Shown piece by piece: positions 1,024 to 25,108 of a stretch of DNA of 64,000 nucleotides. A program made the position numbers and the translations under genes. The first letter of the stretch is position 1; every line of letters begins with the position of its first letter. Under the pieces are notes generated by a model, which saw only the letters and a program-made list of their open reading frames with translations, was not told the DNA's origin and searched no databases. This DNA comes from Comamonadaceae bacterium. GTDB lineage: Bacteria; Pseudomonadota; Gammaproteobacteria; Burkholderiales; Burkholderiaceae_C. The stretch lies in the NCBI GenBank assembly GCA_947455465.1, contig CANGNS010000007.1, positions 62,001-126,000 of the forward strand. Reading direction: 5' to 3'.

Positions 1024-3813
1024 TTAAGGCCGCGCGCCCGTAGCGGCTTTGTTTTTTGCGGCCGCGAAGTCGCCCGCGTAGACGTGCATCAGCTGCCCCG
1101 GCACGATCCATCGGGCGAAGGCGGCATGGACATCTTGCACCGTGGCGCCAGCTATCTGTGCGTATAACTTGTCAGCAAAGGCCATGGTGCGCCCTAGGCG
1201 CCCATTGTCCAACTGCATTTGCGCCAAGGCGCCGTCCTGAGACCAACGGGTCAAGCGTTGCTGGTCCAGACTTTTCTTGGCGTCTTGCAATTCGGCCTCG
1301 GTAATTCCACTGGCCAGCAAACGCGCAAGTTCCTGGGCCACCGCTTGCTCCACTTTGGCACGGTTTTCAGGGGCGAAGATGGCCCACAAAGTCAGTTTTC
1401 CCGCGGGTTCATAGGCTGACACGCTTATTTCGCTTCCTGCGCCGTAGCTGATACCTTCCTGCTGGCGCAAGCGCTCTAGCAAACGCGACTGTGTGCCGCC
1501 GCCCAGAATTTCGTTGGCGAGCAAAAGCGCTGCATAGTCAGGCATGGTGTCTTGCACCTTCAGAGGTAGGGCGGCCAGGTACAGGGCGTTGGCTTTGTCA
1601 GGCGTCTCCAATTGCACGGTAGACGGTTTGGGCTCAGCGGCCACCCTGTGCAAGCGCACAAAAGGCTGTTTGCTAGACCACCCGGCAAACAGCGTGCCCG
1701 CTGCCGTTTGCGCCCAGGCCGGGTCAAAGTCGCCCGCCATGGCGAAATGCGCCGACGCGGCGCCAGCCAAATCGGCATATGCGGCCTTGACCTGCGGCAG
1801 GCGCAGCACTTGGAGGTCGGCAATGCGTTCCTCCAAGCTGCGGGCGTAGCGAATGTCCTGGCGGCGTCCGATATTGTTCAGGCCACGCGCCAACGCGTTG
1901 ATTGCCAGCGCCTCGGGGTCGCTGCGCTGGGCGTTGACGAAGGTTAGCGCTTGGCTGCGTGCCTGTTCGAACTCGGCGGCCGAAAACGTGGGCGCGCGCA
2001 AGATATCACGCAGCAAGGGCATCAGCGCCGGCAGGCTGGCTCGCACCGTTTCAAACTGCAGCACCAGACTTTGCGCTTGCTGGCTGACCGAGAGCTTGGT
2101 TTTGAGTGCGTCCAGCGCGGTGCTGATCTCGCTGCGACTGCGTCGCCCCGCGCCACGCGGCAGCAAAGTGGCCATCAGCTCGAGCGCACTGGCGCGCCCG
2201 GACAGCGATTTTTCGTCGCCGAGCTCGATCAGGATCTGGCCCGACACCGTCTGCCCGCGTGTCTTTTTCGGAATCCATAAGAGTCGCGTTCCGCCGGGCA
2301 AGGTGCTGCGCAGCGTGTGTTCTTCGATCGCGGTAGGTGTGAGCGCAAAGACCTCGCCCTGGGCCACGGCAGGCTTGCCCTGGTAATCGGCGAGCATATC
2401 GGCCACCGCGGGCGTGGCGGGAATTTCGGTGCGTTGGGGCTTGGCAACGGGCACGAACTGGCCCAGGGTGCGGTTACTGGCTTGTAAATAGTGCAGAGCT
2501 ACGCGCTGCACGTCCGCCAGCGTCAATGCCTCTATCCGATCGCGTTGGAGAAAATACAAGCGCCAGTCGCCTTTGGCGATAGCCTCCGACAGCGCAATAG
2601 CCAGGCCCTGCGCATTGTTGATGGTGTTATCAAAATCACTAAGCAAAGACGCTTTGGCGCGCGCCAACTCGGCCGCCGTAATGGGCTTGCGCGCGACGCC
2701 TTCGATCTGCTCCAACATCGCCAGGCGCGCTTGGGACAGGGAGTGGGATTTGTCCAGCTCCAGCCAGAAAATCATGCAGCCCGGCTCGGCAAAGTCCAGC
2801 ATCCACAGCGAGCTTTGCGAAGCCATTTTGCGCTCGACCAGTTGCGTATGCAAGCGGCCCGCAGGCGGCGAGGCCAAGATTTCGCCCACTACGGCCAAGG
2901 CGGCTGTGTCAGGGTGGGCACCGGCCGATATCAAATACAGCGCAGCCAGGTAGTAACTGTCGGCGACGCGGTGGACGGTGACCTCACGGGCGCCATCGCG
3001 CGGCGCCTCGCGGGTGTAGGTCGGCTCCAGCACCCGGGTGGGCCGGGGCACAGGACCAAAGCTTTGCTCCACCATCGCTAGGGCTTGGGCAGACTCGAAA
3101 GCACCGGCAATCACCAAAACCGCGTTATCGGGCTGGTAGTACTTGCGGTAGAAGGCTTGCAGGCGCTCGATCTGCACGTTCTCCACGTCGCTGCGGGCGC
3201 CGATAGTGTCTTTGCCGTAGTTGTGCCAATCAAAAGTCGCTGCCAGCATCTGTTTGTAGAGCACCGACTCGGGGCGGTTTTCACCGGACTCCATTTCGTT
3301 GCGGACCACCGAAAACTCTTTGTCTAGGTCAGCGCGGGCAATCCAACTGTTGACCATGCGGTCCGCCTCCATGCCCAGCACCCAGCGCAAGTTCTCGGGC
3401 GAGGCGGCAAAGGTCTCAAAGTAGTTGGTGCGGTCGGTGTAGGTGCTGCCGTTGAAATCCATGCCGCGCTTACCCAGGGCGGTCATGATATTGCCCTGGC
3501 TGGGCGTGCCTTTAAACACCATGTGCTCGAGCAGATGCGCCATGCCGCTTTCACCATAGTTCTCGTGGCGGCTACCGACCAGGTAGGTGATATTGACCGT
3601 CGTGGTCGGCTTGGAGTCATCGGGCGCGAGCAGCACGCGCAGGCCATTGGGTAGCTGGTATTCGCTAATACCCTCCACACTGCGCACCCGCTGCGCCATG
3701 CCTGCACCGGGGACCTCGGGCAATTGGGCGTAGGCATTGGCCGCAAAGCCCAGACAGACGACACTTGCCAAACAAACGGCGGTGGCCCGTCGGACCCAGG
3801 TCGTGCTTTGCAT
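1024..3813 (-). CDS. Periplasmic M16 family zinc metalloprotease, two-domain (pitrilysin/PqqL-like)
   Basis: 929 aa with a signal peptide (about residues 1-29, ending ANAYAQ), so periplasmic or envelope-located. The inverted zinc motif HLLEH lies at residues 93-97 and the third ligand is expected in NEMESGEN some 75 residues later. The length fits two tandem M16 units, the N-terminal one catalytic and the C-terminal one probably a substrate-cradle half. The family cuts peptides and small proteins. It lies 16 bp downstream of the ABC/M1 fusion gene and is probably the last gene of that operon. It is very similar to the M16 protein at 16548-19292, nearly identical around the active site, so the two look like local duplicates. 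Substrate unknown. Confidence 0.93.
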   Translation of the reverse strand: MQSTTWVRRATAVCLASVVCLGFAANAYAQLPEVPGAGMAQRVRSVEGISEYQLPNGLRVLLAPDDSKPTTTVNITYLVGSRHENYGESGMAHLLEHMVFKGTPSQGNIMTALGKRGMDFNGSTYTDRTNYFETFAASPENLRWVLGMEADRMVNSWIARADLDKEFSVVRNEMESGENRPESVLYKQMLAATFDWHNYGKDTIGARSDVENVQIERLQAFYRKYYQPDNAVLVIAGAFESAQALAMVEQSFGPVPRPTRVLEPTYTREAPRDGAREVTVHRVADSYYLAALYLISAGAHPDTAALAVVGEILASPPAGRLHTQLVERKMASQSSLWMLDFAEPGCMIFWLELDKSHSLSQARLAMLEQIEGVARKPITAAELARAKASLLSDFDNTINNAQGLAIALSEAIAKGDWRLYFLQRDRIEALTLADVQRVALHYLQASNRTLGQFVPVAKPQRTEIPATPAVADMLADYQGKPAVAQGEVFALTPTAIEEHTLRSTLPGGTRLLWIPKKTRGQTVSGQILIELGDEKSLSGRASALELMATLLPRGAGRRSRSEISTALDALKTKLSVSQQAQSLVLQFETVRASLPALMPLLRDILRAPTFSAAEFEQARSQALTFVNAQRSDPEALAINALARGLNNIGRRQDIRYARSLEERIADLQVLRLPQVKAAYADLAGAASAHFAMAGDFDPAWAQTAAGTLFAGWSSKQPFVRLHRVAAEPKPSTVQLETPDKANALYLAALPLKVQDTMPDYAALLLANEILGGGTQSRLLERLRQQEGISYGAGSEISVSAYEPAGKLTLWAIFAPENRAKVEQAVAQELARLLASGITEAELQDAKKSLDQQRLTRWSQDGALAQMQLDNGRLGRTMAFADKLYAQIAGATVQDVHAAFARWIVPGQLMHVYAGDFAAAKNKAATGARP

Positions 3814-3829
3814 GAAGAAACTCTACTTT

Positions 3830-6800
3830 CTAGGGCGCAGAACCCGGCGGGTCCACTTTGACCAGATTGTCATTGGAGTTGCGGTCGATCCGCACATTAA
3901 AAGGATCTACGCCGACAAAAGCCGGTGGCTTGTCCGTCACCATATGCACTTCCTGGCTGCCCGAACGCAATGCGACGCGCTGCAAAGCCAGCACCGCCTC
4001 GGGGCCATAGCCTTTTTTGGCGGGCTCTGCGCTGAAGGCGCCGATGTCGAACGATTCGGCTAAGGGCGTCTCGGTCTCCTTGCCTTTGCCGTCAGCGTAA
4101 TACTTGTTGGCCTGCACCGTAAACCGAACGTCAAACTTGCCATCCGCGCGCACTTGTACCGAAGGCGCACTGGCCTTGAGATCATAGAGCGTTATTTTTT
4201 CGAACAAATCGGCAATCAGTGCGTGCTGCGCTGGATTCACCTCGGCGCGCAAGAGCCGCAGGAAATCCGTGCTCGCCGGATAAGGTGCGCTTTTAAAGGC
4301 AAATTGCGCCAATAGCTTTTGCAAAGCGCGGTTGACCGCTGCTTCGCCAACCTCCTCTTTGAGCGCGTACATGGCCAGCCCGCCCTTTTGGTAATGGATG
4401 TAGCCCTGATTCTCGACACGGTACAGCGGCAACTCCTCCAGCACTTCGCCACCCCGGCTGCGCAAATAGCCATCTAGCTCGTATTTCAAAAACTTGCGAA
4501 TTTGCTCGCGTCCGTACAGCTTTTCCATCACCAAAAGTGCGCTGTACTGGGCAAAGGACTCACTGAGCAAGGTCATGCCCTGCTTGTCCGCACCGATGAT
4601 CTGGTGCGCCCACCACTGGTGGGCCACTTCGTGGGCGGTGACATAGGTCACCAGATCGATCTTGCTGTCGCGCGAGGCATCCTTGAAATTTTGGATAAAG
4701 CCAATCGACTCGGAATAGGGCACCGTGTTTGCAAAGGACTGTGCAAAAGATGCATAGGCCGGAAACTCCAGGACACGCAATTGGCGAAATTGAAAAGGTG
4801 AGAATTTGTCGCTAAAAACATCCAGACTCACTTTCATGGCGTCCAGCATGCGCTGAACGTTGTGCCCATGGGGTGGATGAAAGTACACCGCCAACTCCAC
4901 CGCCGAGCCCTGCGGGCTTTTCCATTGGTCTTTTTGCACAGCGTAACGGGCCGACTGCAGGGAGAAAAAGTTGTGAATCGGCGCCTCGGTGCGGGTAACC
5001 ACGGTGCGTCGTCCATTGGCAACCGTGTCGCTCACGGTATAGCCCGGTGCGACCGGCGTCTGATCTGCATCGGTGCTCAGCGTGATATGGGCTTGTACCC
5101 AATCGCTATCGTGGCGCAGGTAATGGTGGGCGCTGGCTTGCGTATCCTCCAACTTGGCAGGCCGCAACTCGGCGGGCAATCCATATTTGCGCCGTTTGGC
5201 CCGGTCTTGCAAAAACGCGGCGCGGTTAACTCCCAACTGGGGGGTAAGCTCAAAATTATTCAAAAAACTCCCGTTGTCCACGATGCGAGTTTGGTTGTCT
5301 TCATTTCTGAACCCTGTCTGCTGCAAAGTGTTCGAGAAATGCAGGACACGTTGCTCGCCTACAGCCAGTGGCTGGTCCAGTCGGTAAATGCGGTAGCCAA
5401 AGCGCGGGTACTCTTTCTCCAAGGTCGCCCCTTGCATTTGCAAGGCCAGGTCTTGGGCATCGGGGTCCGATTGCACATGCACTTGGGTCAAGGTCGCCCC
5501 GCTGCGGTTTTCCAGAAGGTAGCTTCCGCGCGTGGTCGCCCGTTGCGACTGGGGATACAGCGCCACATCGAGGGTGACTTCAACAATGGTGGGCTGGGGC
5601 AAACTCTCAAAGCCGAGTAGCTGCTTCTCCATATCAGCTGCCAGGGTTTCCCGTTCGTCACGAATCTCGTAGCGGTTGAGCACATTGGTGTTGTAAAAAA
5701 TCCAGGCGCCAAGGCCCGCCCAGGTGACTACCGCACCCAGCAAAAGCACCATGACCGAACCGTGCAAACGCGCGGCTAGGCGCCGCCAGCGGGGCAGTAA
5801 TGCGGTATCCACGCCCCGGCGCCACATCAGATGGCTCAACACCAGCAAAATGCCTGCAAAGCTGCACCAGTACAACTGCATCCAGGCCCGGCCTACCCAA
5901 AAATGGCCTGATCCATTCATATCAGACAAAGGCACGCTCGTACTGCCGGCGTAGTTGTATAAATTGTGTTCAAAGCCCAGGTTGGCCAGCACCATGGTCG
6001 ATACGATGTAGACCAGCATGACCGCCCAGCCGCTGAACTTGTTGGGCACCAAGGTCTGCACAAAAATGGCCAGCACGGCAAGCAAGAAAGCCTCTACCAG
6101 ACGCGGCGCAATAAACCACGCGCCGTAGGCGCCAAGCTCTACGTCGGTAAAACCATGGGCCATTTGAAAGGCGATACCACCGAGCACCGCGGCAAGGTAA
6201 GTTGCCAGCAACACGCCAGCGATAGCCAGCACCTTGGGCAGCATAAATGACCAATCCGGGGCGGCACTGGCACCCACGATTTCGTGCATGCGGCGGTCCC
6301 GGTCACGCCAGACCAGCTCGCCAGCGTAAAAGACCGCGATGATGAAAGTAAACAGCGTGTATGCGCCATTGAGCGCAGCAATCACATTGCGGGTGACCGG
6401 GAAAAACTCCACGCCACGCTGCTCTACCGTGCCTGTCATTGCGCCCAAGGCATTGAATAAGCCCAGCACCAGCAAAACAATAAAAGCCGGACTGCGCAGC
6501 ACATAGGCCAGGTCAAACCGCACCAAGGCCCAACATTGCGCTAGCGCACGCCCTGCGCCAGTGCTGCCCTGCGGGAGCGGGCCCGGGGTTGGCGCTGCCT
6601 CGCCATCGTCGGCCAGTTTGTCCACTTTCTGGGCCGACGCGCCAGCCGATGCATCGAAGCGAAACACTGCATAGGCCAGCGCCAAAAATACCAAAGCCAT
6701 ACCTGCCCAGAGCAGGCGGTTGTACAAAATCAGGCCCGTCATCGCCGGCAACTGGGTGTTGCGCTCGGCAGCGGTCCAGTAGCGGGTCAGCTGGTTGAAG

Positions 6801-7441
6801 GCACTGAGTCCAAAGGGATCGGTCCACGCCGAGACCGTATCCCAGGCCGGGTCACGCAGCATCATGCGCGAGCCGATAAACAGCACCAAGAAAGCAATAA
6901 CGCCTATAAATGTCCACATGAGCGAGCGCGTCGCTGTGGCCAACGCAAAAAATGCGGCGGCGGTAAGCAACAAAGTGGGGACACCGAAATACAGAAAAGC
7001 TAGCCCGTAGTGCCGCAATACGGTGGGACCCAAAGTTTCCGGGTCGATCCAGGGCATCTGGCTGCCGATGAGCATCCCCAAGGGCACGGCCGCCATGACG
7101 GCCAGAACTGCCACAAAGGCGCCACAAAAGCGGCCTACCAAATAGTCAAATTTACCAATCCGTGTACTGCGCACCAGGGGTGCGAAACCGGTCTCGTCGT
7201 CGCGTATGACCACGTTGGCGACAAAGGCCGTCACCACAAAAAGGCCAAACAAATTGAGGATCGCAATTGTTTGCGCAATGGCGTAAGGCGCGTTGGCATG
7301 GACATTGCCGCCCGCACCGATACGTATGTTTTCAGACGCCACGCTGCCAAAAGCAAACAAAAAGAACAGGGCAAACGCCACTACAAACAAGGGCGAACGC
7401 AGTTGGTAGCGGGCCTCAAACCGGGCGATAGCGCTAAACAT
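3830..7441 (-). CDS. ABC-2 type permease fused to an M1 family aminopeptidase domain
   Basis: 1203 aa. The N-terminal ~570 residues hold about a dozen hydrophobic segments in two ABC-2-like blocks, starting with a cytoplasmic MFSAIARFEARYQLRSP segment typical of these permeases. The C-terminal ~550 residues are an M1 metallopeptidase with HEVAH at 937-941 and a downstream Glu (about E961, in LLSESFAQY), which are the zinc ligands. Its ATPase partner is the next gene upstream, 8 bp away. The architecture predicts an inner-membrane exporter with an outward-facing aminopeptidase that could trim peptides during or after export. This fusion family is recurrent in proteobacterial genomes, but I know of no defined substrate. 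Confidence 0.93.
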   Translation of the reverse strand: MFSAIARFEARYQLRSPLFVVAFALFFLFAFGSVASENIRIGAGGNVHANAPYAIAQTIAILNLFGLFVVTAFVANVVIRDDETGFAPLVRSTRIGKFDYLVGRFCGAFVAVLAVMAAVPLGMLIGSQMPWIDPETLGPTVLRHYGLAFLYFGVPTLLLTAAAFFALATATRSLMWTFIGVIAFLVLFIGSRMMLRDPAWDTVSAWTDPFGLSAFNQLTRYWTAAERNTQLPAMTGLILYNRLLWAGMALVFLALAYAVFRFDASAGASAQKVDKLADDGEAAPTPGPLPQGSTGAGRALAQCWALVRFDLAYVLRSPAFIVLLVLGLFNALGAMTGTVEQRGVEFFPVTRNVIAALNGAYTLFTFIIAVFYAGELVWRDRDRRMHEIVGASAAPDWSFMLPKVLAIAGVLLATYLAAVLGGIAFQMAHGFTDVELGAYGAWFIAPRLVEAFLLAVLAIFVQTLVPNKFSGWAVMLVYIVSTMVLANLGFEHNLYNYAGSTSVPLSDMNGSGHFWVGRAWMQLYWCSFAGILLVLSHLMWRRGVDTALLPRWRRLAARLHGSVMVLLLGAVVTWAGLGAWIFYNTNVLNRYEIRDERETLAADMEKQLLGFESLPQPTIVEVTLDVALYPQSQRATTRGSYLLENRSGATLTQVHVQSDPDAQDLALQMQGATLEKEYPRFGYRIYRLDQPLAVGEQRVLHFSNTLQQTGFRNEDNQTRIVDNGSFLNNFELTPQLGVNRAAFLQDRAKRRKYGLPAELRPAKLEDTQASAHHYLRHDSDWVQAHITLSTDADQTPVAPGYTVSDTVANGRRTVVTRTEAPIHNFFSLQSARYAVQKDQWKSPQGSAVELAVYFHPPHGHNVQRMLDAMKVSLDVFSDKFSPFQFRQLRVLEFPAYASFAQSFANTVPYSESIGFIQNFKDASRDSKIDLVTYVTAHEVAHQWWAHQIIGADKQGMTLLSESFAQYSALLVMEKLYGREQIRKFLKYELDGYLRSRGGEVLEELPLYRVENQGYIHYQKGGLAMYALKEEVGEAAVNRALQKLLAQFAFKSAPYPASTDFLRLLRAEVNPAQHALIADLFEKITLYDLKASAPSVQVRADGKFDVRFTVQANKYYADGKGKETETPLAESFDIGAFSAEPAKKGYGPEAVLALQRVALRSGSQEVHMVTDKPPAFVGVDPFNVRIDRNSNDNLVKVDPPGSAP

Positions 7442-7449
7442 GGCGCGGC

Positions 7450-8346
7450 TCAGACGGAGGCTGCCGCAGCGGCACGATGGCGGGCGCCTACGACGATCGA
7501 AAAATACAGATCCTCCAGGGAACCGGTAATCGCTTCAAAATGGGGGTCGGGTGCGTTATCGGCCAAGACATGCACAACGGTCTTGCCTGCGCGCAAGCGG
7601 TGGGCAATCACCTGATGCTCCTTGCGAAACTCGTCCAAGGCGCCCATGGCGATTTCGCGGCGCCACACCCTGCCCTGCAAACCTTGCACCAAGACCTCCG
7701 GCGCGCCTTGCAACAGCACGCGCCCGCCGACCATGACCGCCATTTGCGGGCACAGGGCGGACACATCGTCAACGATGTGGGTGGACAAAATTACGACCAC
7801 TTGCTCGCCAATTTCAACCAGCAAGTTGTTAAACCGGTTGCGCTCCTCTGGGTCCAGACCGGCGGTGGGCTCGTCCACAATAATCAGCTTGGGGTTGCCA
7901 ATGAGCGCCTGGGCAATGCCAAAGCGTTGGCGCATACCGCCCGAAAAACCGGCGACGGCTTTCTTGCGGACGTCCCATAAATTCACTTTGGCCAGCAAGG
8001 TCTCCACCGTGTCTTTGCGTGCGCCATGCCCAGTAATGCCTTTGAGTACCGCCAAGTGGTCCAGCAGCGCATAGGCACTGATGCGCGGGTATACGCCAAA
8101 GTCTTGTGGCAAATAGCCCAGCACCTGGCGCAATTTTTCAGGTTCGCGTACCACGTCAATATCGCCAAAGCGGATGCTGCCCTCGCTCGGAGTTTGCAGG
8201 CTGGCAATGCAGCGCATCAAGGTGGATTTGCCGGCGCCATTGGGGCCCAGCAAGCCAAACATGCCGGTAGGAATATGCAGGTTCACGCCGTCAAGCGCCT
8301 GGGTGCCGTTGGCATAGCGGTGCGAAAGCTGACTCAGTTCAAGCAT
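7450..8346 (-). CDS. ABC transporter ATP-binding protein (partner of the ABC-2/M1 permease)
   Basis: 298 aa, a single ABC ATPase domain with Walker A GPNGAGKST near residue 35, signature FSGGMRQRFGIAQAL and Walker B LIIVDEPTAGLDPEERNR. A C-terminal extension of ~80 residues (after MVGGRVLLQGAP) is typical of ABC-2 exporter ATPases. It is placed directly upstream of the permease/M1 fusion with an 8-bp gap, so it almost certainly energises that permease. A 59-bp gap separates it from the NatB-like gene upstream, which is compatible with one six-gene transcript. Confidence 0.93.
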   Translation of the reverse strand: MLELSQLSHRYANGTQALDGVNLHIPTGMFGLLGPNGAGKSTLMRCIASLQTPSEGSIRFGDIDVVREPEKLRQVLGYLPQDFGVYPRISAYALLDHLAVLKGITGHGARKDTVETLLAKVNLWDVRKKAVAGFSGGMRQRFGIAQALIGNPKLIIVDEPTAGLDPEERNRFNNLLVEIGEQVVVILSTHIVDDVSALCPQMAVMVGGRVLLQGAPEVLVQGLQGRVWRREIAMGALDEFRKEHQVIAHRLRAGKTVVHVLADNAPDPHFEAITGSLEDLYFSIVVGARHRAAAAASV

Positions 8347-8405
8347 GGAAAAAACCCTTTTTCATCAAAATCAGTACCCGACCACTGCCCGGCTTGCAAT
8401 GGGCG

Positions 8406-9599
8406 CTAACGCACCGCATTGCTGCGCATGGCCCGCCCCACATAGGCCAGGCCGGCCACCATCAGCAGCAAGCCGATCGCGCATGGAAGTAACCATTGCC
8501 ACGGCGCAATAGGCTCGGCGCGCAAAACATGCAGCATCAGGGTTTGTTGCGCCAAGGAGGGTACCAGGTAGTACCAATCGGGCTCAGCAGCATCATTGAG
8601 TAAAGACACCAGCGGCAACAACATAAACACCATCAACACCAGCGAATTGCCCGCTTGTGCTTCTTTAATGCTCTTGCCGCGAATGGACGAGGCCATTAAG
8701 AGCGCAGCGACCGCGCCCGCAAAAGGCAGGCAAATGAGGGCAAAAAGCAAGGCATCCGGTAGTCCATAACGGAACAGGGCTTGCAAGGCATCGCTGCGTA
8801 TAAGCAGCTGCGCCGGAATAAAGCTCAGACTGGTCAACAAGGCAATCACGGCAGCCAGCACAGCAACAGCCCCCCATTTGCCCAAGGCCAAGGCCCAGGG
8901 TGAGACCGGGTTCATCATCAAAGGTTCGAGCGAACTGCGCTCGCGCTCACCGGCCGTGGTGTCCATGGCCGCGCCCATGGCGCCGGTTAATACGGCAATG
9001 AGGACGTACAAAGGAATCATGGAACCCGTGAGCTGCGCCGCACGCGAGTTGGCATTGGCCAGATCACGCTCTTGCACCTCCAGCGGCTTGAGGCTGGCCA
9101 CGGCCACCCCGCGCAAGGCGAGGGTTAGGCCCACACGCTCCTGGGCGTAGGACTGCAACAAGTTGCGCGCGACATCGCGCGCCGTACTCGAGCCCCGGCT
9201 GCTGCTGTTCGCGTAGATTTCTACCGCTGGCATCTCTAAGGCCTGCAAGCGCTGCTCAAAATCGGCGGGCACCACCACAATGGCATCTTCCAGTTGGCCG
9301 GCCGCCAGCTTGTCCATGGCGTCGGCTGGCACAGCCTTGATGGTGTAGGCCTGGCGCTCGATAAAGTTTTGCAAACCCGGCGCGTACTGCATGCCTTGGG
9401 CATAAATTTCGCGCTTGTCGATGCGGTTTTCTTTCTCACTGGCCAAAGTGGAAATCAGCAGCAAAACGATCGGCCCCTGCACCAAACTCAGAAGCAACAC
9501 CGTGCGCAACGTGCGCCGGTCGCGCCAAGCGTCGCGGAGCTCCTTGAGGAACACCGCCACCCATTGGGCCAGAGCGCTGCTCTGTGTCGGTTGGCTCAT
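8406..9599 (-). CDS. ABC-2 type permease, NatB-like
   Basis: 397 aa. One N-terminal membrane helix (TVLLLSLVQGPIVLLLIS) is followed by a ~150-residue extracytoplasmic domain and then five to six helices, the layout of NatB/YhaP-type ABC-2 permeases. The AAMDTTAGERERSSLEPLM segment is a family hallmark. The gene overlaps the preceding NatA-like ATPase gene by 4 bp (ATGA), so the two are translationally coupled and form one exporter. Characterised NatAB proteins export sodium, but most homologues are unassigned and the cargo here is unknown. Confidence 0.92.
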   Translation of the reverse strand: MSQPTQSSALAQWVAVFLKELRDAWRDRRTLRTVLLLSLVQGPIVLLLISTLASEKENRIDKREIYAQGMQYAPGLQNFIERQAYTIKAVPADAMDKLAAGQLEDAIVVVPADFEQRLQALEMPAVEIYANSSSRGSSTARDVARNLLQSYAQERVGLTLALRGVAVASLKPLEVQERDLANANSRAAQLTGSMIPLYVLIAVLTGAMGAAMDTTAGERERSSLEPLMMNPVSPWALALGKWGAVAVLAAVIALLTSLSFIPAQLLIRSDALQALFRYGLPDALLFALICLPFAGAVAALLMASSIRGKSIKEAQAGNSLVLMVFMLLPLVSLLNDAAEPDWYYLVPSLAQQTLMLHVLRAEPIAPWQWLLPCAIGLLLMVAGLAYVGRAMRSNAVR

Positions 9600-10414
9600 A
9601 GCACGGCTCCTGGCTGAGGCGGCGCGGCCGAGAAGGCCAGGTGCACAAACGCATCCTCAAAATCGCTTTGGCCGGTTTGCGCCAACAAATCGGCAACGCT
9701 ACCGCTGGCCACATTGCGCCCGTGGGCGACCACTACCACCTGGTCACACAGGCGCTCCACCTCTTGCATGATGTGGGTCGAAAACACAATGCATTTGCTC
9801 CCGCCTGCCGGCGAGCACAAGTGACGCAATGTATCGCGCAGCGCGCGGGTGGCCAGCACGTCCAGCCCGTTGGTTGGCTCATCCAAAATGATGTTGTCCG
9901 GGTCATGGACCAGCGCACGGGCCAGGGCGGTTTTGACGCGCTCGCCCTGGCTAAAGCCTTCGGTGGCGCGGTCCAGCAAGGGGCGCAGCTCTAGTAGGTC
10001 GGCCAATTGCTCGGCGCGGGCGTGGGCCGCCGCAGCGGACAAGCCGTGCAAGCGGCCGAAGTACACCATATTTTCCCGGGCAGTAAGGCGTGGGTACAGG
10101 CCGCGCGCATCGGCCAGAATGCCCATGCGTGCCTGCGCCTTGGCACGCTCTTGCGTAACAGACAAACCGTCCACCTCCAGGCGACCGCTGTCGGGGGCGA
10201 GTAGCCCGGCCAGCATGCGCAAGGTGCTGGTTTTGCCAGCGCCGTTGGGGCCTAGCAAACCGGTGATCTGCCCATTGGGTGCATGCAAACTAATGTCACT
10301 GACGGCCTGCACCCAGGGCTGCTCCTTGCGTTGCAGGCGCCAGCCGCTGCGCTGCCAGCGCGCGCCAGTGGCCTGGGCGGCAAAGCGTTTAGATACTTTG
10401 TCGATAAAAATCAT
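9596..10414 (-). CDS. ABC transporter ATP-binding protein, NatA-like
   Basis: 272 aa from the ATG whose A lies at 10414. The longer open frame upstream only shadows the S33 hydrolase gene. The protein starts MIFIDKVSKRF, has Walker A GPNGAGKTS and Walker B NIILDEPTNGLD, and a signature reading FSQGE rather than the usual LSGGQ, as is common in NatA homologues. Its start overlaps the upstream hydrolase stop by 4 bp (ATGA) and its stop overlaps the natB-like start in the same way. The three genes are therefore tightly coupled, and it should power the NatB-like permease. Confidence 0.92.
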   Translation of the reverse strand: MIFIDKVSKRFAAQATGARWQRSGWRLQRKEQPWVQAVSDISLHAPNGQITGLLGPNGAGKTSTLRMLAGLLAPDSGRLEVDGLSVTQERAKAQARMGILADARGLYPRLTARENMVYFGRLHGLSAAAAHARAEQLADLLELRPLLDRATEGFSQGERVKTALARALVHDPDNIILDEPTNGLDVLATRALRDTLRHLCSPAGGSKCIVFSTHIMQEVERLCDQVVVVAHGRNVASGSVADLLAQTGQSDFEDAFVHLAFSAAPPQPGAVL

Positions 10415-11919
10415 GGTACCCCCTGGGCTGCAGCAACGGTCGGCCGTACGAACGCCAGGGGCCGTGGAATCGATTGGGCGCAACGGGCATCTACTGCCAA
10501 TGCTTGGGCGTCGTCGCTGGCCTGGATAAAAGCCGTCAGCACTTTGTGCATACAGGCGTGCGACAAGATTCCGTGGCCCGCCTGCGGAACCAGCACATGG
10601 CGCGCCAGCGGCCCCAGCCCTTGCAGGGCCCGCTGCGCGTGGCGTGCAGGCGTCACCGGATCGATGCCGCCGCTGAGCAGCAAAGTGGCATGCTGCGCTG
10701 GCGGTATGCGGTAGAAATCTGCCGGCACTGCGCCTTGCGGCCAATCGCGGCATGCGCTGCGGTACTGGGTTTGGGGGTCGGTGCTATCTGGCGGGGTGCC
10801 CGCAGCCGTTGGCATGCGCGGATAGTCTTCGGCGCACACCACACCCAGATGCATGCCCAGGGCAAGACGCAAATGGGGTGCGCCATTTTGCAACGCGCTT
10901 TCTAATCCAGCCAGGCCCTCAAAACGGCCGTGCGCGGCATCATGCACTGCTTGGGGCAAGGCGGCCGCAATCGCCGGCGTGTATAGCGCGCCGCGAACGG
11001 TCCCCATAACGGCTTCGCGCGTGACGCTGACTTGCAGCAACTGGCCCGTCAACGGATGTGCCAGCGTTACCGATTGGGGCAAGCTTTGCCAAAGCGATTG
11101 CCACTCGGCCGCCAGCGCGGGAAAAGCCTGCTGGCAAGGGCGTGAAGCACGGCAACTAGCCCACAAGGCATCGAGCGCCGCCTGGCTGTCCGGGCCCAGC
11201 GTCGTGGGCAGCACCATATCGGGGGGGGCGACGCCATCGAGCACGCTGCGGCGCACATGGTGGCCAAACTGGCGCATATATTCCAGCGCAGCGCGCGTGC
11301 CATACGAGGCGCCCACCACATTGATCTGTGTAGCGCCCAGGGCCTGGCGCACCGCATCCAGATCTTGCATGGCCAAGGTCGTGGTGAAAAAGCCTAAGTC
11401 TGAAGGCCGATTGATATAGGGCAAGCGCTCCAAGGCGGCGCGGCATTGGGTCAGTTCCTGGGCCTGCGCCTGGGCGCTGGCAGCACCCAAGGGCAGACGG
11501 GGCGGCGGCGGGCACATCAGGGGGGCTGACTTGCCGGTGCCGCGCTGGTCGACCAAAACCAGATCGCGCTGCAAGAGCAAACGCTCAAACCACGGCAAGA
11601 CTGCCGCAGCCAAGCCGATGGCGCTTTGGCCCGGACCGCCTGCGAGCATGAACACCGGGTCGGGCTTGCGATTGCGCGCCACCGAGCGCAGGACGACGTA
11701 GTGCACTGTGATCTGTGGGCCGCCAGGGCGCGCCGGGTCGAGCGCGCGCAGCAACTGCCCACAACGCACCTCGGTTTTGATGCCCGCAACTCGGCACGCT
11801 ACGGTAGGGTCGGCGACGGGAGTGTCAGACGCACCGGCGATTGCAGGCCAGCCCAAGAGCGCAAAAACTAGCCAGAGGCCCCACAAAACGCGGTTCCAAA
11901 ACAAAGAGGAAGGCAGCAT
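10411..11919 (-). CDS. Secreted alpha/beta hydrolase, S33 peptidase-like (tripeptidyl/prolyl aminopeptidase family)
   Basis: 502 aa with an N-terminal signal peptide (hydrophobic WGLWLVFALLGWPAIAGA). The oxyanion segment LAGGPGQSA, nucleophile elbow VGASYGTR, a C-terminal SGGIDPVTPARHA (acid) and QAGHGI (His) form the S33 catalytic set. Family members release N-terminal di- or tripeptides or proline. It is probably the first gene of the operon that runs into the NatAB-like exporter, the second ABC exporter with M1 domain and an M16 protease. That placement suggests peptide processing in the periplasm, but an esterase role is not excluded. Confidence 0.88.
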   Translation of the reverse strand: MLPSSLFWNRVLWGLWLVFALLGWPAIAGASDTPVADPTVACRVAGIKTEVRCGQLLRALDPARPGGPQITVHYVVLRSVARNRKPDPVFMLAGGPGQSAIGLAAAVLPWFERLLLQRDLVLVDQRGTGKSAPLMCPPPPRLPLGAASAQAQAQELTQCRAALERLPYINRPSDLGFFTTTLAMQDLDAVRQALGATQINVVGASYGTRAALEYMRQFGHHVRRSVLDGVAPPDMVLPTTLGPDSQAALDALWASCRASRPCQQAFPALAAEWQSLWQSLPQSVTLAHPLTGQLLQVSVTREAVMGTVRGALYTPAIAAALPQAVHDAAHGRFEGLAGLESALQNGAPHLRLALGMHLGVVCAEDYPRMPTAAGTPPDSTDPQTQYRSACRDWPQGAVPADFYRIPPAQHATLLLSGGIDPVTPARHAQRALQGLGPLARHVLVPQAGHGILSHACMHKVLTAFIQASDDAQALAVDARCAQSIPRPLAFVRPTVAAAQGVP

Positions 11920-11979: not shown

Positions 11980-14900
11980 TCAAGCATGTGCGCGTCGGCG
12001 CATCCACGCTAAACCGCCTGCCAGGCTGCGCCACACAAAACGCAGCAACAACAAGGTCAGCAGGGCTTCGAGGAGCGTCACCAAGAGCGCCAGCGAAGCG
12101 TGGTAGCGCTGGCTGCGCGCCCGGATTTTGGCCTGCATGCGCTCGCTGGCACTCTCAATACTGTCGTAAAAACTGGGTACCACGAGCAAAGTCAACACTG
12201 TGGAGGTGATGGTGCCGCCAATGATAGAGACGGCCAGCGGTTGGTAAAACTCGCCGCCCTCCCCCAGGCCCAGAGCCACCGGAATCATGCCGGCAATGAG
12301 CGCAAACGTGGTCATCAAAATCGGGCGCAAGCGCACGCGGCCGGCGTGCATCAGAGCTTCCTCCCGGTTGATGCCACCGGCCTCTTCCTTGCGCGCAGCG
12401 TCGAGCAGCAAGATCGCATTTTTGGCGACCAAGCCCATGAGCATGATGATGCCGATAAAACTCATCAGGTTGAGTGTTCCGCCGGTCAGCAAAAGCGCAA
12501 TGACCACGCCAATCAGCGACAAGGGCAAGGACAGCATCACGCCCAAAGGCGCGGTGAAGGAGCTAAATTGGATCACCAAAATCAGGTACATCAGTCCGAT
12601 GCCGCTGACCAGGGCGATCAACATTTCGGTAAACAGTTCTTTTTGATCCTGGCCGGCCCCCGCCAGCTCCAGGCCGTAGCCGGGCGGGTAGTCCATGGCC
12701 TGGGCCAGTTTGAGCGCATCGGCCGTGACTTCGCCGTTGGAGCGCCCCTGCGCATTGGCGGCCACAGTGACCACGCGCTTGCCCTCGCTGTGCGAAATCG
12801 TCGAGGGCGCTTTGCCCATGGTGATGGTGGCAATTTGCTCCAGCGGCACCAACTCGCCGGTGCCTGCGACGGCGATGGGCAGGCGTTCGATGTTTTCGCG
12901 CGAAAGGCGGTCCTGGGGATGAAGGCGCACGGCCACGTCACGCGTCTCGCCCGTCGGATCGACCCAGTCGCCCACCTCGATGCCTGCAAATGCGATGCGT
13001 AAGGCTTGGGCTGCATCATTGGCCGAGATGCCCATGGAGTTGGCCAGGCCGCGGTTGAGCTCGATGCGCAGTTCTTTGCTCGGGTCTTGCTCGGACAGAC
13101 CGACGTCAACGGCGCCGGGCACCTGGCGCAGTTTTTCCATAAAGCGGTTAGTAATTTCCAACAAGCGGCGCGAGTCCGGCCCGGTAAACTCGATTTGTAC
13201 CGGCTTGCGCGCGCCATTGCCCAGATCGTCAAACACGGTGAACTCGGCACCAATGAGCGGGCGAATTTTCTCGCGCAGATCAGCCGCCAACTCTTTGGCG
13301 CTGCGGCGGCGGTCTTTGCGCGGGCCGATGTCCACATAAATGCGCCCGCCGTTGGGGCCGATATTGCTATTGGTCTCCCGCGTTTCGGGCAGGGTGCGGG
13401 CGATTTCGGCGGCACGCTCCATCTTCAAGCGGGCGTATTCCAAAGACGATGAGGCGGGTGTGCGCACATCGATCATCAGATTGCCCGAATCCGCAGCGGG
13501 TAAAAAGGCCGAGCCACCATAGCGCACATGCAGCGTCAAGGCCGCGACCAAGGTGCTCAGCGCAATCAGGCCCATGGCGCGGCGGTGGTGCAGCGCCCAG
13601 GCAATCACGCCGGCATAGCGATCGGCCTGGTGGTCAAACCAGTCATTGAAAACTTGCAGGCGGCGCCCCACCGGGCCCTTGGGCGCGCTGTGGTGGTCTG
13701 GCGGGTCGCCCCAGTAGGCCGACAGCATGGGGTCCAGCGTGAAAGAAATCGCCAGGCTGACCAGGACCGAACAAGCCACCGTGAGCGCGAAGGGCCGGAA
13801 CCATTCGCCGGCGCCACCGGGCATGAAGGCCACTGGCAAAAACACCGCAATGATGGACATGGTGGTGGCCGTCACGGCCAGCCCGATCTCGGCCGTGCCT
13901 TCCAAAGCGGCGGTGCGGCGGTCCGCGCCACGTTGCATGTGGCGCACGATGTTTTCGCGCACCACGATGGCGTCGTCGATAAGCACGCCAATGGCCAGCG
14001 ACAAGCCCAGCAAGGACATGAAGTTGAGCGTAAAGCCACATAGCCACACGCCGATAAACGCGGCGATAACCGACGTGGGCAAGCTCAGCCCGGTAATCAA
14101 GGTGGAACGCCAGGAATTGAGGAAGGCGTAGACCACGACGATGGTCAGGCCAGCGCCCAGTACCAGAGAGTCGATCACGTTGTTCAGGCTGTTTTGCGCA
14201 TCCTTGCCGCCGTCGCGGGTAACCTCCAAAACGGTGCCGGGGCTGTCTTTGGCCAATTGGGCGTTGAACGCTTTGGTGGCCTCGCGCACCGCTTTGGCGA
14301 CGGACACGGTACTGGCATCACGCGCCCGCGTCACATAGATGCCGACATTGGGCTTGCCGCTGCGGGTGCTGAGGCCGTCAAGTTCGGCAAAACCATCTTC
14401 CACCGTGCCTAATTGCCCCAGACGCACCAGTTGGGCGCCCATGCGCTTGACCACAATTTGCGTGAAGTCTTGCGGCTCGGCGATGCGACCCACCAGGCGA
14501 ATGCTCTCGTTTTCATAGGGGCCGCGCAGTTTGCCCACGGGCGCGTTGGCGTTTTGGGCCCGAATGGCATTGACCACCTCACCCACGGACACGTTGTACT
14601 CGCGCAGCTTGGCCGAGCGCAGCAACACCGAGAGTTCACGCTTCAGCGAACCCGAAACATTGACGGTAGCCACGCCCGGCAAAGCGCGCAGTTTGTCGGC
14701 TAACACATCCTCGGCCAAGCGCGATATTTGGGCATGGCTTTGGCTGCTGCTAGACAGGGCCAAGTTGATGATGGGCTGGGCAGACGGGTCGTAGCGGCGA
14801 ATCACCGGCTCGCGCATCTCGACGGGCAGTTTGTAGCGCACCGAGGCGATCACTCCACGCACCTCGTCAGCCGCTTCGATCATGTTTTTGCTAAAGGCAA

Positions 14901-15183
14901 ACTGCATGTCAAAGCGGGCATTGCCTTCGGCGCTGGTGGACCAGACTTTTTGGGCGCCCGCGACGCTTTGCAGCGATTTTTCGAGGCGGTTGACGATTTC
15001 ACGCTCCACCGTATCGGGCGAAGCACCGGGATAAGCAATCGAAATAAACAGGCCCGGGTTTTCGATATCGGGAAACTGGTTGACGCGCAATTTGTTGAGC
15101 GCCATCAACCCCAGGGCCATGACGCCCAAAATAATCACCACCGTAGCAATCGGGCGGCGGATGCTGAAATCCGATAAAAACAT
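11980..15183 (-). CDS. RND efflux pump inner-membrane transporter (AcrB/MexB-like, HAE1 family)
   Basis: 1067 aa, the usual RND length, with twelve predicted helices and two large periplasmic loops. It starts MFLSDFSIRRPIATVV. The proton-relay Asp pair is visible in TM4 (GVLIDDAIVVREN), and the GGTLNLMSFIGIIMLMGLV segment is conserved in the C-terminal half. It should be a proton-driven tripartite pump for hydrophobic drugs, solvents or lipids. The adaptor gene lies 2 bp upstream on the same strand. No TolC-like outer-membrane channel gene is adjacent, so it probably borrows one encoded elsewhere. No regulator gene flanks the pair. Confidence 0.95.
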   Translation of the reverse strand: MFLSDFSIRRPIATVVIILGVMALGLMALNKLRVNQFPDIENPGLFISIAYPGASPDTVEREIVNRLEKSLQSVAGAQKVWSTSAEGNARFDMQFAFSKNMIEAADEVRGVIASVRYKLPVEMREPVIRRYDPSAQPIINLALSSSSQSHAQISRLAEDVLADKLRALPGVATVNVSGSLKRELSVLLRSAKLREYNVSVGEVVNAIRAQNANAPVGKLRGPYENESIRLVGRIAEPQDFTQIVVKRMGAQLVRLGQLGTVEDGFAELDGLSTRSGKPNVGIYVTRARDASTVSVAKAVREATKAFNAQLAKDSPGTVLEVTRDGGKDAQNSLNNVIDSLVLGAGLTIVVVYAFLNSWRSTLITGLSLPTSVIAAFIGVWLCGFTLNFMSLLGLSLAIGVLIDDAIVVRENIVRHMQRGADRRTAALEGTAEIGLAVTATTMSIIAVFLPVAFMPGGAGEWFRPFALTVACSVLVSLAISFTLDPMLSAYWGDPPDHHSAPKGPVGRRLQVFNDWFDHQADRYAGVIAWALHHRRAMGLIALSTLVAALTLHVRYGGSAFLPAADSGNLMIDVRTPASSSLEYARLKMERAAEIARTLPETRETNSNIGPNGGRIYVDIGPRKDRRRSAKELAADLREKIRPLIGAEFTVFDDLGNGARKPVQIEFTGPDSRRLLEITNRFMEKLRQVPGAVDVGLSEQDPSKELRIELNRGLANSMGISANDAAQALRIAFAGIEVGDWVDPTGETRDVAVRLHPQDRLSRENIERLPIAVAGTGELVPLEQIATITMGKAPSTISHSEGKRVVTVAANAQGRSNGEVTADALKLAQAMDYPPGYGLELAGAGQDQKELFTEMLIALVSGIGLMYLILVIQFSSFTAPLGVMLSLPLSLIGVVIALLLTGGTLNLMSFIGIIMLMGLVAKNAILLLDAARKEEAGGINREEALMHAGRVRLRPILMTTFALIAGMIPVALGLGEGGEFYQPLAVSIIGGTITSTVLTLLVVPSFYDSIESASERMQAKIRARSQRYHASLALLVTLLEALLTLLLLRFVWRSLAGGLAWMRRRAHA

Positions 15184-15185
15184 GC

Positions 15186-16319
15186 TTATTGCCCCGAAGC
15201 CGCAGCGCTGGCCTTGGCCTGCGCAGGGGTGGCCACCAGGCTGATGGCTTGGCCGTCTTTCAAATTGCCGCCGGGGTTGCGCAACAGACGGTCGCCTGTT
15301 TGAACGCCGGCCTGCACGGCAAACTGGCCGCTGCGGGCGTCACGCGCGCCCAGGGTGACGGCCACTTTATGCACCGCGCTAGCGTCCACCCGCCAGACAA
15401 AGCTGGCGTCGCCCGCGCGCTGCACTGCCGATTCGTCAACCACCGGAACGCTTTGGGCTTTGGCCCCACTGCGGATTTGGCCCTCGGCATACAAACCAGC
15501 CACCCTCGGCCGCGCCGGGCCGGTGAAGGCCACCAGGACCTCGAGTTGGCGGGTGGCTTCGTTGGCACTGGGGTCGATGCGGGTTACCTTGCCTTCAAAA
15601 CTCTCGTCACCGTAGCCATTGACGCGAAAACGGACCCCTTGGCCCAATTGCACCTGGCCGGCCTGGTCGGCCGATACGCGGCCGACAAAGCGCAGACTGT
15701 TGGGGTCAATCACTTTGAGCAGCTCTTTGCCGATGGATGCGGTGTCGCCGGGCGAGGCCTTGCGCTCGCCGATCACGCCGTCAAATGGCGCCCGCACCTG
15801 GGTACGCTGCAGCTGCTGTCGGGCCAGAACAGCGCGAGAGTTGGCAGCAGATACTTCATTTTGCGCGGAGTTGGCGCGAATTTCAGCATCATCAATGGCT
15901 TGCAAGGTGGCCATGCCGCTGGCGCGCAGGGTTTTGAGGCGTTCTAAGTTGCGCTTGGCTTGCTCGAGCTGAAAGCCGGCGTTGCGGGCGCTTTCTTCGG
16001 CTGCATTGAGGTTGTCGCGGATGGCGGTTTCGTCCAGCCGGACCAGCAAATCACCCCGGCGCACCACGTCGCCATTGTCTTTGAGCACTTCAAGCACCAC
16101 CGCCGAGGCCTCGGCGCGCAGGTCGGCCTTGCGCTCGGCGGCAATCGTGCCCGAAATTACTGGGCCGCCGCCGGCCGCGCCGTCGGCCACCGTCAGCATG
16201 TCTTCGGGCGCCACCAGCAAGGGGACGGCCGTTGCGCCGGCAGCAGCAGCCGGATCAGGCGCTTTGTGGCAAGCAGCCAAAACCAAAATAAGACTAGTAA
16301 TTAGAAGGACGCGGTTCAT
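15186..16319 (-). CDS. RND efflux periplasmic adaptor (membrane fusion protein), lipoprotein
   Basis: 377 aa. The N-terminus MNRVLLITSLILVLAAC ends in an LAAC lipobox, so the protein is expected to be lipid-anchored in the inner membrane. A lipoyl-like half (ADLRAEASAVVLEVLKDNG) is followed by a coiled-coil hairpin of alternating Ala, Gln and Arg, the second lipoyl half (RTQVRAPFDGVIGE), then beta-barrel and proximal domains. It links the AcrB-like pump at 11980-15183 to an outer-membrane channel. The two genes are 2 bp apart and must be cotranscribed. The divergent M16 gene starts 228 bp away. Confidence 0.94.
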   Translation of the reverse strand: MNRVLLITSLILVLAACHKAPDPAAAAGATAVPLLVAPEDMLTVADGAAGGGPVISGTIAAERKADLRAEASAVVLEVLKDNGDVVRRGDLLVRLDETAIRDNLNAAEESARNAGFQLEQAKRNLERLKTLRASGMATLQAIDDAEIRANSAQNEVSAANSRAVLARQQLQRTQVRAPFDGVIGERKASPGDTASIGKELLKVIDPNSLRFVGRVSADQAGQVQLGQGVRFRVNGYGDESFEGKVTRIDPSANEATRQLEVLVAFTGPARPRVAGLYAEGQIRSGAKAQSVPVVDESAVQRAGDASFVWRVDASAVHKVAVTLGARDARSGQFAVQAGVQTGDRLLRNPGGNLKDGQAISLVATPAQAKASAAASGQ

Positions 16320-19324: not shown

Positions 19325-21106
19325 ATGACCATCATTGCCCAACGCCTCGCCACCTTGCGCGCCCAGATGGCGCTGCACCATTTAGATGCCTGGGTCCTGC
19401 CCTCCTCGGACCCGCATAACTCCGAATATGTACCGGCGCGCTGGAAAGTGCGCCAATACCTTTCGGGTTTTAGCGCTTCGGTCTCGACCATGGTGGTCAT
19501 GCGGGATAAAGCCTATGTCTGGGCGGACGGACGCTACTGGCTGCAGGCCGAGCGCGAGTTGGCCGGTAGCGGCATCGAGATCATTTACTTCGGCAAACCC
19601 GATGTACCGCAGTGGAACCATTGGCTGGCCGAGCAACTACCGGCGGGTGCACGCTTGGGTTTTTACGGCGCCACCATGATGGTCAAGGCCCTGGCAGACA
19701 TCGAGCCCCTGCTGCAGAAAAAGGGCGTGAGCGTGCACACCGCGCACGACCTGGTCGACGCCGTTTGGCTGGACCGCCCCGGCTACCCGATGGAGCCTGT
19801 TTTCGCCCATGACCTGCAGTATGCGGGTGAGACGGCGGCCCGCAAACTGGACAAAGTACGCGCCCAGATGCGCAAGAGCGAAGCCAGCGCCCATGTGCTC
19901 AATGCACTGGACGACATAGGCTACCTGCTCAATCTACGCGGCACCGACGTGCCCACCTCGCCTTACTTTCACGCCTATCTGGTAGTCACTTTGGAAGACG
20001 CCTACCTGTACGCCCACCAGGAGCGCTTTGATGCCGCACTGACAACACAGCTGCAGGAACAAGGCGTGGCGCTGCGGCCGTACACCGAATTTTTCGCCGG
20101 TCTGGCCGAACTGGCGGGTCAGCACGTGCTGGTCGATCCGGCGCAAAGCAATATATTGACTTTCCAAACCCTACGCCAACACGGCTGCACATTGGTGGAG
20201 CAACGGGCACCTTCAGTAGCGCTCAAAGCCATCAAGAACGAGACCGAGATCGCCCATTGGAAGAACTGCTTTGTGCGCGACGGGCTGGCCATGGTGCGCT
20301 TTTTGCACTGGTTTTATGCGCAGGTGGGCGGCGGCGCGCTCACCGAGCGCAGCGTCTCGGACCGCATAGACGGCGAACGTGCCAAACTGCCCCTGTTTCG
20401 GGGACTGAGCTTTACTTCGATTCCTGGCTACGGTCCTAACGCGGCCATGATGCATTACGGCCTGAAAGACGGGATAGAGACGCCCGTGTCGCCGCAAGGC
20501 TTTTTCCTTTTGGACTCCGGCGGTCAGTACGACGACGGCACGACCGACATTACCCGAACCCTGGTGTGCGGCGAGACGACGCTGGAGCAAAAAAGGCATT
20601 ACACCTTGGTGCTCAAAGGCATGTTGCGCCTGTCGGCAGCTATTTTTATGCATGGCACGCGCGGCTTACAGCTCGACATTTTGGCCCGCCAGGCACTCTG
20701 GAATGAGGGGATTAACTATGCCTGCGGCACCGGCCATGGCGTGGGCTATTTCAACAATGTGCACGAAGGCCCGCACAGCATTAGTACGGCCTTGGTTGAC
20801 CAGCCCATTTTGCCGGGCATGGTGGTTACCAACGAGCCTGGCGTTTACCTGCCTGGACGCTACGGTATTCGTATCGAAAACATCCTGCTGTGCCAGCCGC
20901 ACCAAAGCACTGAACACGGTAACTTTTACCGCTTCGAGGCGCTAACCCTTTGCCCCATTGACACCCAAGCGGTGATCAAAGACCTCTTGGGCGCCGAGGA
21001 AACTGCCTACCTCAACGCCTACCACGCGACTGTCTTAGACCAACTCGGCCCCCATTTGCAAGGGCAGGAGCGCGATTTTCTAGAGCGGGCCTGCGCGCCC
21101 TTATAA
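19325..21106 (+). CDS. pepP: Xaa-Pro aminopeptidase (aminopeptidase P, M24B)
   Basis: 593 aa with no signal peptide, so cytoplasmic. Two N-terminal creatinase-like domains precede the pita-bread metallopeptidase domain, as in the long three-domain APP1 type. Dinuclear metal ligands can be read in LLDSGGQYDDGTTDITRT (two Asp), GTGHGVGYFNNVHEG (His), TNEPGVYLPG (Glu) and GIRIEN (Glu). It removes the N-terminal residue from peptides with Pro in position 2. It follows the second M16 gene by 32 bp. The symbol pepP is used in the broad sense; E. coli PepP is a shorter protein. Confidence 0.92.
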   Translation: MTIIAQRLATLRAQMALHHLDAWVLPSSDPHNSEYVPARWKVRQYLSGFSASVSTMVVMRDKAYVWADGRYWLQAERELAGSGIEIIYFGKPDVPQWNHWLAEQLPAGARLGFYGATMMVKALADIEPLLQKKGVSVHTAHDLVDAVWLDRPGYPMEPVFAHDLQYAGETAARKLDKVRAQMRKSEASAHVLNALDDIGYLLNLRGTDVPTSPYFHAYLVVTLEDAYLYAHQERFDAALTTQLQEQGVALRPYTEFFAGLAELAGQHVLVDPAQSNILTFQTLRQHGCTLVEQRAPSVALKAIKNETEIAHWKNCFVRDGLAMVRFLHWFYAQVGGGALTERSVSDRIDGERAKLPLFRGLSFTSIPGYGPNAAMMHYGLKDGIETPVSPQGFFLLDSGGQYDDGTTDITRTLVCGETTLEQKRHYTLVLKGMLRLSAAIFMHGTRGLQLDILARQALWNEGINYACGTGHGVGYFNNVHEGPHSISTALVDQPILPGMVVTNEPGVYLPGRYGIRIENILLCQPHQSTEHGNFYRFEALTLCPIDTQAVIKDLLGAEETAYLNAYHATVLDQLGPHLQGQERDFLERACAPL

Positions 21107-25034: not shown

Positions 25035-25108
25035 GGTGAATGCCTTTGTCGTAGCCAGCCAATAGTGCATTGTGCTACAGGATAAGTGTGCAAGATAGGC
25101 GATAGGCA

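Follow-up and report, generated by a model that had tools for sequence, protein, structure and literature searches.

Two peptidase-coupled ABC-2 exporters side by side in a Rhodoferax-like clade

A row of six minus-strand genes occupies positions 1024 to 11919 of a 64,000-nucleotide stretch of Comamonadaceae bacterium DNA (assembly GCA_947455465.1, contig CANGNS010000007.1, positions 62,001 to 126,000), the whole of which is referred to here as the window. The row brings together, in one clade of bacteria, two self-contained ABC-2 exporters (ABC, ATP-binding cassette), each coupled to a peptidase. The first exporter consists of an S33 hydrolase, a NatA-like ATPase and a NatB-like permease, and the second of another ATPase (ATP2) and a permease fused to an M1-type zinc peptidase domain (ABC2/M1); the sixth gene encodes an M16 protease (M16a). 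Because the two units are mostly kept apart elsewhere, we lean, with some reserve, towards reading the row as a clade-specific assembly of separable units and not as one fixed machine.

The six-gene row

The genes of the row are given below in the direction in which they are read.

10411-11919, minus strand: S33 hydrolase (PF00561 and PF08386 in Pfam)
9596-10414, minus strand: NatA-like ABC ATPase of 272 aa, with an ATG start at 10414 (Pfam)
8406-9599, minus strand: NatB-like ABC-2 permease (Pfam)
8347-8405, minus strand: gap of 59 bp between NatB and ATP2
7450-8346, minus strand: ATP2, the ABC ATPase partner of the ABC-2/M1 fusion (Pfam)
3830-7441, minus strand: ABC2/M1, an ABC-2 permease with 13 hydrophobic helices, whose M1-type zinc peptidase domain begins near residue 618
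1024-3813, minus strand: M16a, a two-half M16 protease with HLLEH and a signal-like N-terminus (Pfam)

All of the coordinates in the original prediction were recovered, together with its overlaps and gaps: S33 overlaps NatA (at ATGA) and NatA overlaps NatB by 4 bp each, while 8 bp separate ATP2 from ABC2/M1 and 16 bp separate ABC2/M1 from M16a. The open reading frame (ORF) of NatA that reaches to 10753 is an upstream extension, and the start is taken as 10414. Pfam and NCBIfam fit the gene labels, with the exception of the ABC-2 part of the fusion protein, and the catalytic motifs are present. Compared with the related locus L002, the eight minus-strand genes (the six of the row and the two efflux pump genes upstream of it) all show a ratio of nonsynonymous to synonymous substitutions (dN/dS) of 0.04-0.13; the row is therefore no chance reading, and its genes look to be under purifying selection. 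ABC2/M1 is present once in the 3.06-Mb source genome.

An exporter with an S33 hydrolase as near-constant partner

The S33 protein, an alpha/beta hydrolase, has a TAP-like C-terminus and a signal-like N-terminus, a candidate serine at position 205 within GASYG, and Asp and His motifs, and the candidate Ser, Asp and His are retained in 16 of the 16 relatives examined. Both its matches to PF00561 and PF08386 and these candidate catalytic residues place it with the TAP-like hydrolases. In a draw of 250 genomes of the family, with expectation value (E) limits of 1e-50 for ABC2/M1 and 1e-30 for each of NatB and S33, ABC2/M1 was found in 16 genomes, NatB in 77 and S33 in 81. With the source genome excluded, S33 and NatB are at most 5 kb apart in 74 of the 76 genomes having both, the other two (G507 and G636) carrying them on separate contigs; S33 occurs without NatB in four genomes. 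Of the trio loci fetched from beyond the window's clade, all 27 (L202, L220-L233, L236-L240, L244-L247, L250, L253 and L254) have NatA between the two genes, and so has locus L006. Because of this nearness, and because NatA stands between S33 and NatB in every trio locus fetched, we regard S33-NatA-NatB as one nearly invariant unit. Neighbour clustering, which holds many spurious frames, gave no clear further partner, and a search of the open-licence literature yielded no description of the trio.

The unit is like the NatAB- and DrrAB-type ABC-2 exporters in that the ATPase and permease genes adjoin, but it differs from them in falling under the curated NCBIfam cut-offs and in having an S33 hydrolase as a near-constant partner. 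The drrA model scores 179 and 194 bits, short of the NatA/DrrA equivalog cut-off of 312, and NatB matches a single NCBIfam model, that of an ABC/CPBP-protease fusion, in its permease part and also under the cut-off. The trio would make up an ABC-2 exporter that has a serine hydrolase of its own, probably in the periplasm.

An exporter with a tethered M1-type domain

ABC2/M1 was followed through the best 80 of the 436 relatives found; these are the closest ones, and little is therefore said about distant subfamilies. ATP2 is directly upstream of ABC2/M1 on the same strand in 80 of the 80 loci, with a median gap of 11 bp; the two genes overlap slightly at L051 and L069. Caulobacter endophyticus is among the carriers of the pair (L037 and L049). 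ATP2-ABC2/M1 is likewise one nearly invariant unit. An ATPase gene also precedes the fusion gene on Sphingomonas and Hymenobacter plasmids, and the fusion occurs in Pseudomonadota, Bacteroidota and Acidobacteriota. Plasmid cargo was considered as a source of the window's pair and rejected, since the segment 3830-8346 has no near match in the plasmid collection, although distant relatives of the fusion do sit on plasmids.

The protein belongs to an already known kind of fusion, the ABC-2/M1 peptidase fusion exporters of TCDB family 3.A.1.145, described for Myxococcus xanthus Q1D520 (PMC3924187). The likeness is one of architecture and not of alignment with Q1D520: that family has an ABC-2 N-terminus with about 13 transmembrane helices, where we find 13 hydrophobic helices, and a C-terminal M1 peptidase domain, to which the Pfam, phmmer and Foldseek matches described below correspond. 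A point of difference is that the motif by which M1 aminopeptidases anchor the amino end was not seen in this protein. No study assigning a substrate to an ABC-2/M1 fusion was found in the open-licence literature. By its parts, the second unit would be an ABC-2 exporter with an M1-type zinc peptidase tethered to its permease and probably lying in the periplasm. We infer that the substrate of both exporters, peptide-like or anchored in the membrane, would be moved or pulled to the periplasmic face and cleaved there by the coupled enzyme.

The assignment of the C-terminal domain begins with a Pfam match to PF01433 (E 3.6e-11), and phmmer also matches M1 enzymes. The Pfam scan gave no ABC-2 family match for the fusion protein, and the permease part rests on the helices and on the predicted structure. 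This structure, covering residues 1-1197 (predicted local distance difference test, pLDDT, 85; predicted template modelling score, pTM, 0.80), has 13 long hydrophobic helices followed by an M1-like domain, and the loop charges mostly fit a placement of the M1 domain outside. The 50 best PDB matches listed by Foldseek are M1 aminopeptidases (IRAP, ERAP, PepN and others), with a best E of 1.5e-17 and 12-14% identity. Because no large helical domain is seen after the catalytic part in the predicted secondary structure, the cleft may be less closed than that of classical M1 aminopeptidases.

An alignment of 34 of the 81 available sequences (the window and the 80 loci) shows the zinc site, made up of H937, E938 and H941 in HEXXH and the downstream E961, to be invariant in all 34; L010 and L019, which have a stop codon in the stretch, were left out, as were L034, L040, L058 and L070. 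Y1017, which we take to be the catalytic tyrosine of M1 enzymes, is also invariant in 34 of 34. The spacing from HEXXH to the downstream Glu is X18 in the M1 family and one residue longer here. In M1 aminopeptidases the exopeptidase motif GXMEN holds the free amino end of the substrate; it occurs in none of the 34 aligned sequences, which have an FAQ[SA]F-type sequence at the expected place, and it is also unseen in four plasmid records (L274-L277, from Sphingomonas, two Hymenobacter and Granulicella), of which L277 is poorly aligned. Because this anchor motif is absent, the name aminopeptidase is doubtful, and the domain, judged by its residues, is more likely not a classical one; the absence also yields a direct prediction on the chemistry of the fusion. 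Some results count against this account of the domain. The structural matches to M1 enzymes have modest TM-scores of 0.40-0.52 when scaled by target length. The GXMEN region was compared through a single ungapped phmmer alignment, in which a shift by one column is possible, and L016 and L036 carry a Glu one column ahead of the expected place of the motif.

Two distant relatives of ABC2/M1, L096 and L099, are without the zinc ligands, and because of these the M1 domain may be non-catalytic in some lineages. Loci L100-L108 of the wider comparison are other M1 enzymes and not fusions.

Conservation and separation of the units

The full row is found only in one Rhodoferax-like clade with about 83% identity in ABC2/M1 (L002, L003, L004 and L008), and at L005 it matches as far as the contig reaches. 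Gene order and strand are the same in all of these, at about 76-96% amino-acid identity. Among the 80 loci, S33 and NatB are near ABC2/M1 in six (L002-L006 and L008), adjoining in five and 6.5 kb away in one.

L022 offers a close comparison. It shares 92.4% DNA identity with L003 over the efflux pump genes (5.4 kb) and 94.4% over ATP2-ABC2/M1-M16a (7.2 kb), and the 3.6-kb S33-NatA-NatB cassette is missing from it within one contig; neither NatB nor S33 has a match at E 1e-20 in its 3.0-Mb assembly. G661, a genome of the same genus that is 86% complete, has no ABC2/M1 match at E 1e-50, and its NatB-NatA-S33 genes adjoin a relative of M16b, the second M16 gene of the window, with an M24 gene further on. 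Fourteen genomes of the family draw have both units (source genome excluded), on different contigs in 12 and on the same contig at least 448 kb apart in two; many genomes are metagenome-assembled or drafts, and absences and different-contig cases (12 of the 14) are singly weak evidence. One fixed six-gene system, as the original prediction proposed, is not borne out and was rejected, given the cassette missing from L022, the lack of linkage in 14 of 14 family genomes with both units and the uncoupled M16a described below. What does hold well beyond the source genome is the joining of peptidases to exporters, for S33 with NatAB and for the M1 domain fused to the second permease, but not for M16a. 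The separability of the two units tells an experimenter which genes to delete jointly and which separately.

There are nonetheless several results that weigh against a view of the row as a local assembly. In the family draw NatB is found in 14 of 15 genomes with ABC2/M1 and in 62 of 234 others (p 2.8e-7; counted by genus, 9/10 against 35/130, p 1.2e-4), in the order draw, with the fusion at E <1e-50, in 15 of 18 against 23 of 380 (p 1.8e-14; by genus, 6/9 against 11/149, p 4.4e-5), and in the genus draw in 7 of 8 against 10 of 53 (p 3e-4); these p-values take no account of the tree or of genome size, the counts by genus were made by hand and the draws overlap a little. The units also lie about 1.9-2.6 kb apart, with order and strand retained, in five genomes of family f8 that come from two genera (G056, G269, G298, G354 and G380; trio loci L236-L240). 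The intervening genes are conserved there, an OsmC-like gene, a coq7-like gene (both named from reading the sequences and not by family search) and one further, the last two being antisense. At L006 a distance of 6.5 kb separates the ATP2-ABC2/M1 pair from the trio, with the order reversed, and the chance of at least two such near lineages among 16 is about 0.002 under a rough uniform model, with lineages hand-counted and the test post hoc. The nearness in f8, seen in the order draw, weakens the view that the two units are mere strangers. Lastly, because the gap before ATP2 is just 59 bp in the window, both units may form one transcript there.

These associations raise the question as to whether five or six genes form one functional pathway of peptide export and processing, usually held at two loci and united in this clade. 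Co-occurrence at the genome level in the family, order and genus draws and the nearness in f8 and L006 speak for such a pathway, but we judge it rather unlikely. L022 retains ATP2-ABC2/M1-M16a without a match to S33 or NatB; ABC2/M1 stands without NatB in G449 (family draw), in G308, G337 and G393 (order draw) and in G697 (genus draw), and G661 has the trio without ABC2/M1; two of the three intervening genes in f8 are antisense; and M16a is no part of the pathway. In addition, an RND (resistance-nodulation-division) gene of at least 76% identity, used as a control in the genus draw and showing no linkage with NatB beyond the clade, is accompanied by NatB in 16 of 17 genomes, and therefore common descent alone can yield strong co-occurrence and mimic association. 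The interpretation in the original prediction is borne out in part: the two units associate by genome and are near each other in f8 and L006, but are mostly unlinked. We see a moderate indication that both units probably have related tasks, in peptide handling or in the envelope, and this would account for their lying close together more than once, yet each occurs without the other.

A more specific proposal, and one that we consider quite improbable, is that the two ABC-2 machines are one dispersed envelope pathway which would extract membrane-anchored polypeptides bearing signal peptides or lipids and clip them at the periplasmic face, with the M1 domain in the role of a tethered endopeptidase; the genes, usually at two loci, would repeatedly drift together and become fully adjacent in this clade. 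The AyrBC ABC transporter of Staphylococcus aureus bypasses signal peptidase when overexpressed, and those who described it offer the speculation that proteins anchored by a signal peptide are pulled out of the membrane by it (PMC5013292, PMC5727409). The likeness, an ATPase and a permease of a type 2 ABC transporter, is an analogy only; AyrBC differs in having AyrR and AyrA as partners, and the portions of these papers that describe it mention no fused peptidase.

Returning to the local assembly that we favour, the sequence before ATP2 bears on whether its units are read separately. Six relatives have a stretch of 119-137 bp there, where the window has 59 bp, and five of the six carry a promoter-like TTG[GC]CC-N17-CACAAT at the same place; in L022 the promoter boxes are not the best match. 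This suggests a conserved promoter before ATP2 in the relatives, and only suggests it because, over the 110 bp before ATP2, conservation among four relatives does not consistently exceed that at fourfold sites. The 59-bp gap of the window has no good match to the promoter, and a consensus scan of it found none. Separate promoters for the two parts, which had been named beforehand as a sign against a single operon, are therefore hinted at by the boxes in five relatives, but not by the window itself.

M16 proteases, efflux genes and neighbours

Upstream of S33 and on the same strand are the permease and adaptor genes of an RND pump, which the original prediction had passed over; the second M16 copy and the peptidase P gene that it placed nearby were both found.

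11980-15183, minus strand: RND efflux permease, the upstream neighbour, 60 bp from S33
15186-16319, minus strand: RND periplasmic adaptor (membrane fusion protein, MFP; Pfam/NCBIfam)
16548-19292, plus strand: M16b, a second two-half M16 protease, read divergently from the pump genes
19325-21106, plus strand: M24 aminopeptidase P-like protein (PepP), without a signal-like N-terminus

HLLEH is kept in both M16a and M16b. The former matches PqqL by phmmer, and its best solved match is 3amj, a zinc peptidase with active and inactive subunits. M16a is near ABC2/M1 in 6 of the 80 loci (L002-L005, L008 and L022), and at L005 (genome G663, about 8348-10703) it is broken, with four stop codons along one matched stretch and its 3′ piece lying apart, the neighbouring ABC2/M1 being an open frame. 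In G696 and G672, relatives of M16a (62-64% identity) have no ABC2/M1 next to them within the fetched stretches. M16a is a stand-alone protease that is not coupled to the exporters, and it would form a third unit of the assembly, all three standing behind the RND pump. M16a and M16b, about 52% identical, mark the two ends of the pump-exporter row and face opposite ways; in several congeners a relative of M16b is present but the row is not.

In the Fus/PqqL import systems a periplasmic M16 protease is encoded with a transporter (PMC6793856), and the window is similar in having a two-half M16 protease encoded alongside one. The Fus/PqqL clusters, as that source presents them, include a FusA-type outer-membrane receptor, whereas none of the 36 window ORFs scanned with Pfam encodes a TonB-dependent (FusA-type) receptor, and import of this type was rejected on that ground.

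The broken M16a at L005, the presence or absence of the cassette and the neighbours at ABC2/M1 loci outside the clade, which mostly differ by the same neighbour clustering, would all fit plain crowding, in which unrelated envelope and efflux genes gathered at a variable site downstream of the RND pump with no common purpose. We consider this unlikely, since order and strand are held in L002, L003, L004, L008 and part of L005 at the identities given above, and since the nearness of the units recurs in f8 and L006.

An alternative explanation, close to the defence against antimicrobial peptides put forward in the original prediction, is immunity to antimicrobial peptides or bacteriocins, with exporters that expel or extract the peptides and peptidases that destroy them. 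A histidine kinase and a LytTR regulator adjoin the ATPase-ABC2/M1 pair on two Hymenobacter plasmids (L275 and L277), an arrangement found in peptide-sensing systems, and both ATPases of the window resemble drug and lantibiotic-protection ATPases in NCBIfam, under the cut-offs. However, a histidine kinase or LytTR-type regulator is absent inside the row of the window and PADLOC gave no specific system, and we regard immunity as quite improbable. With respect to anti-phage defence, no system-specific PADLOC model was matched among the six proteins, which gave ABC-ATPase matches and one TAP-like match, with three proteins without a match.

The M24 aminopeptidase P-like protein is probably cytoplasmic because it has no signal-like N-terminus. 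Further along the window, a DNA polymerase III alpha-type protein with a PHP domain, perhaps error-prone and DnaE2-like, is encoded at 25109-28315, and a beta-lactamase-fold gene at 23871-25223 adjoins it.

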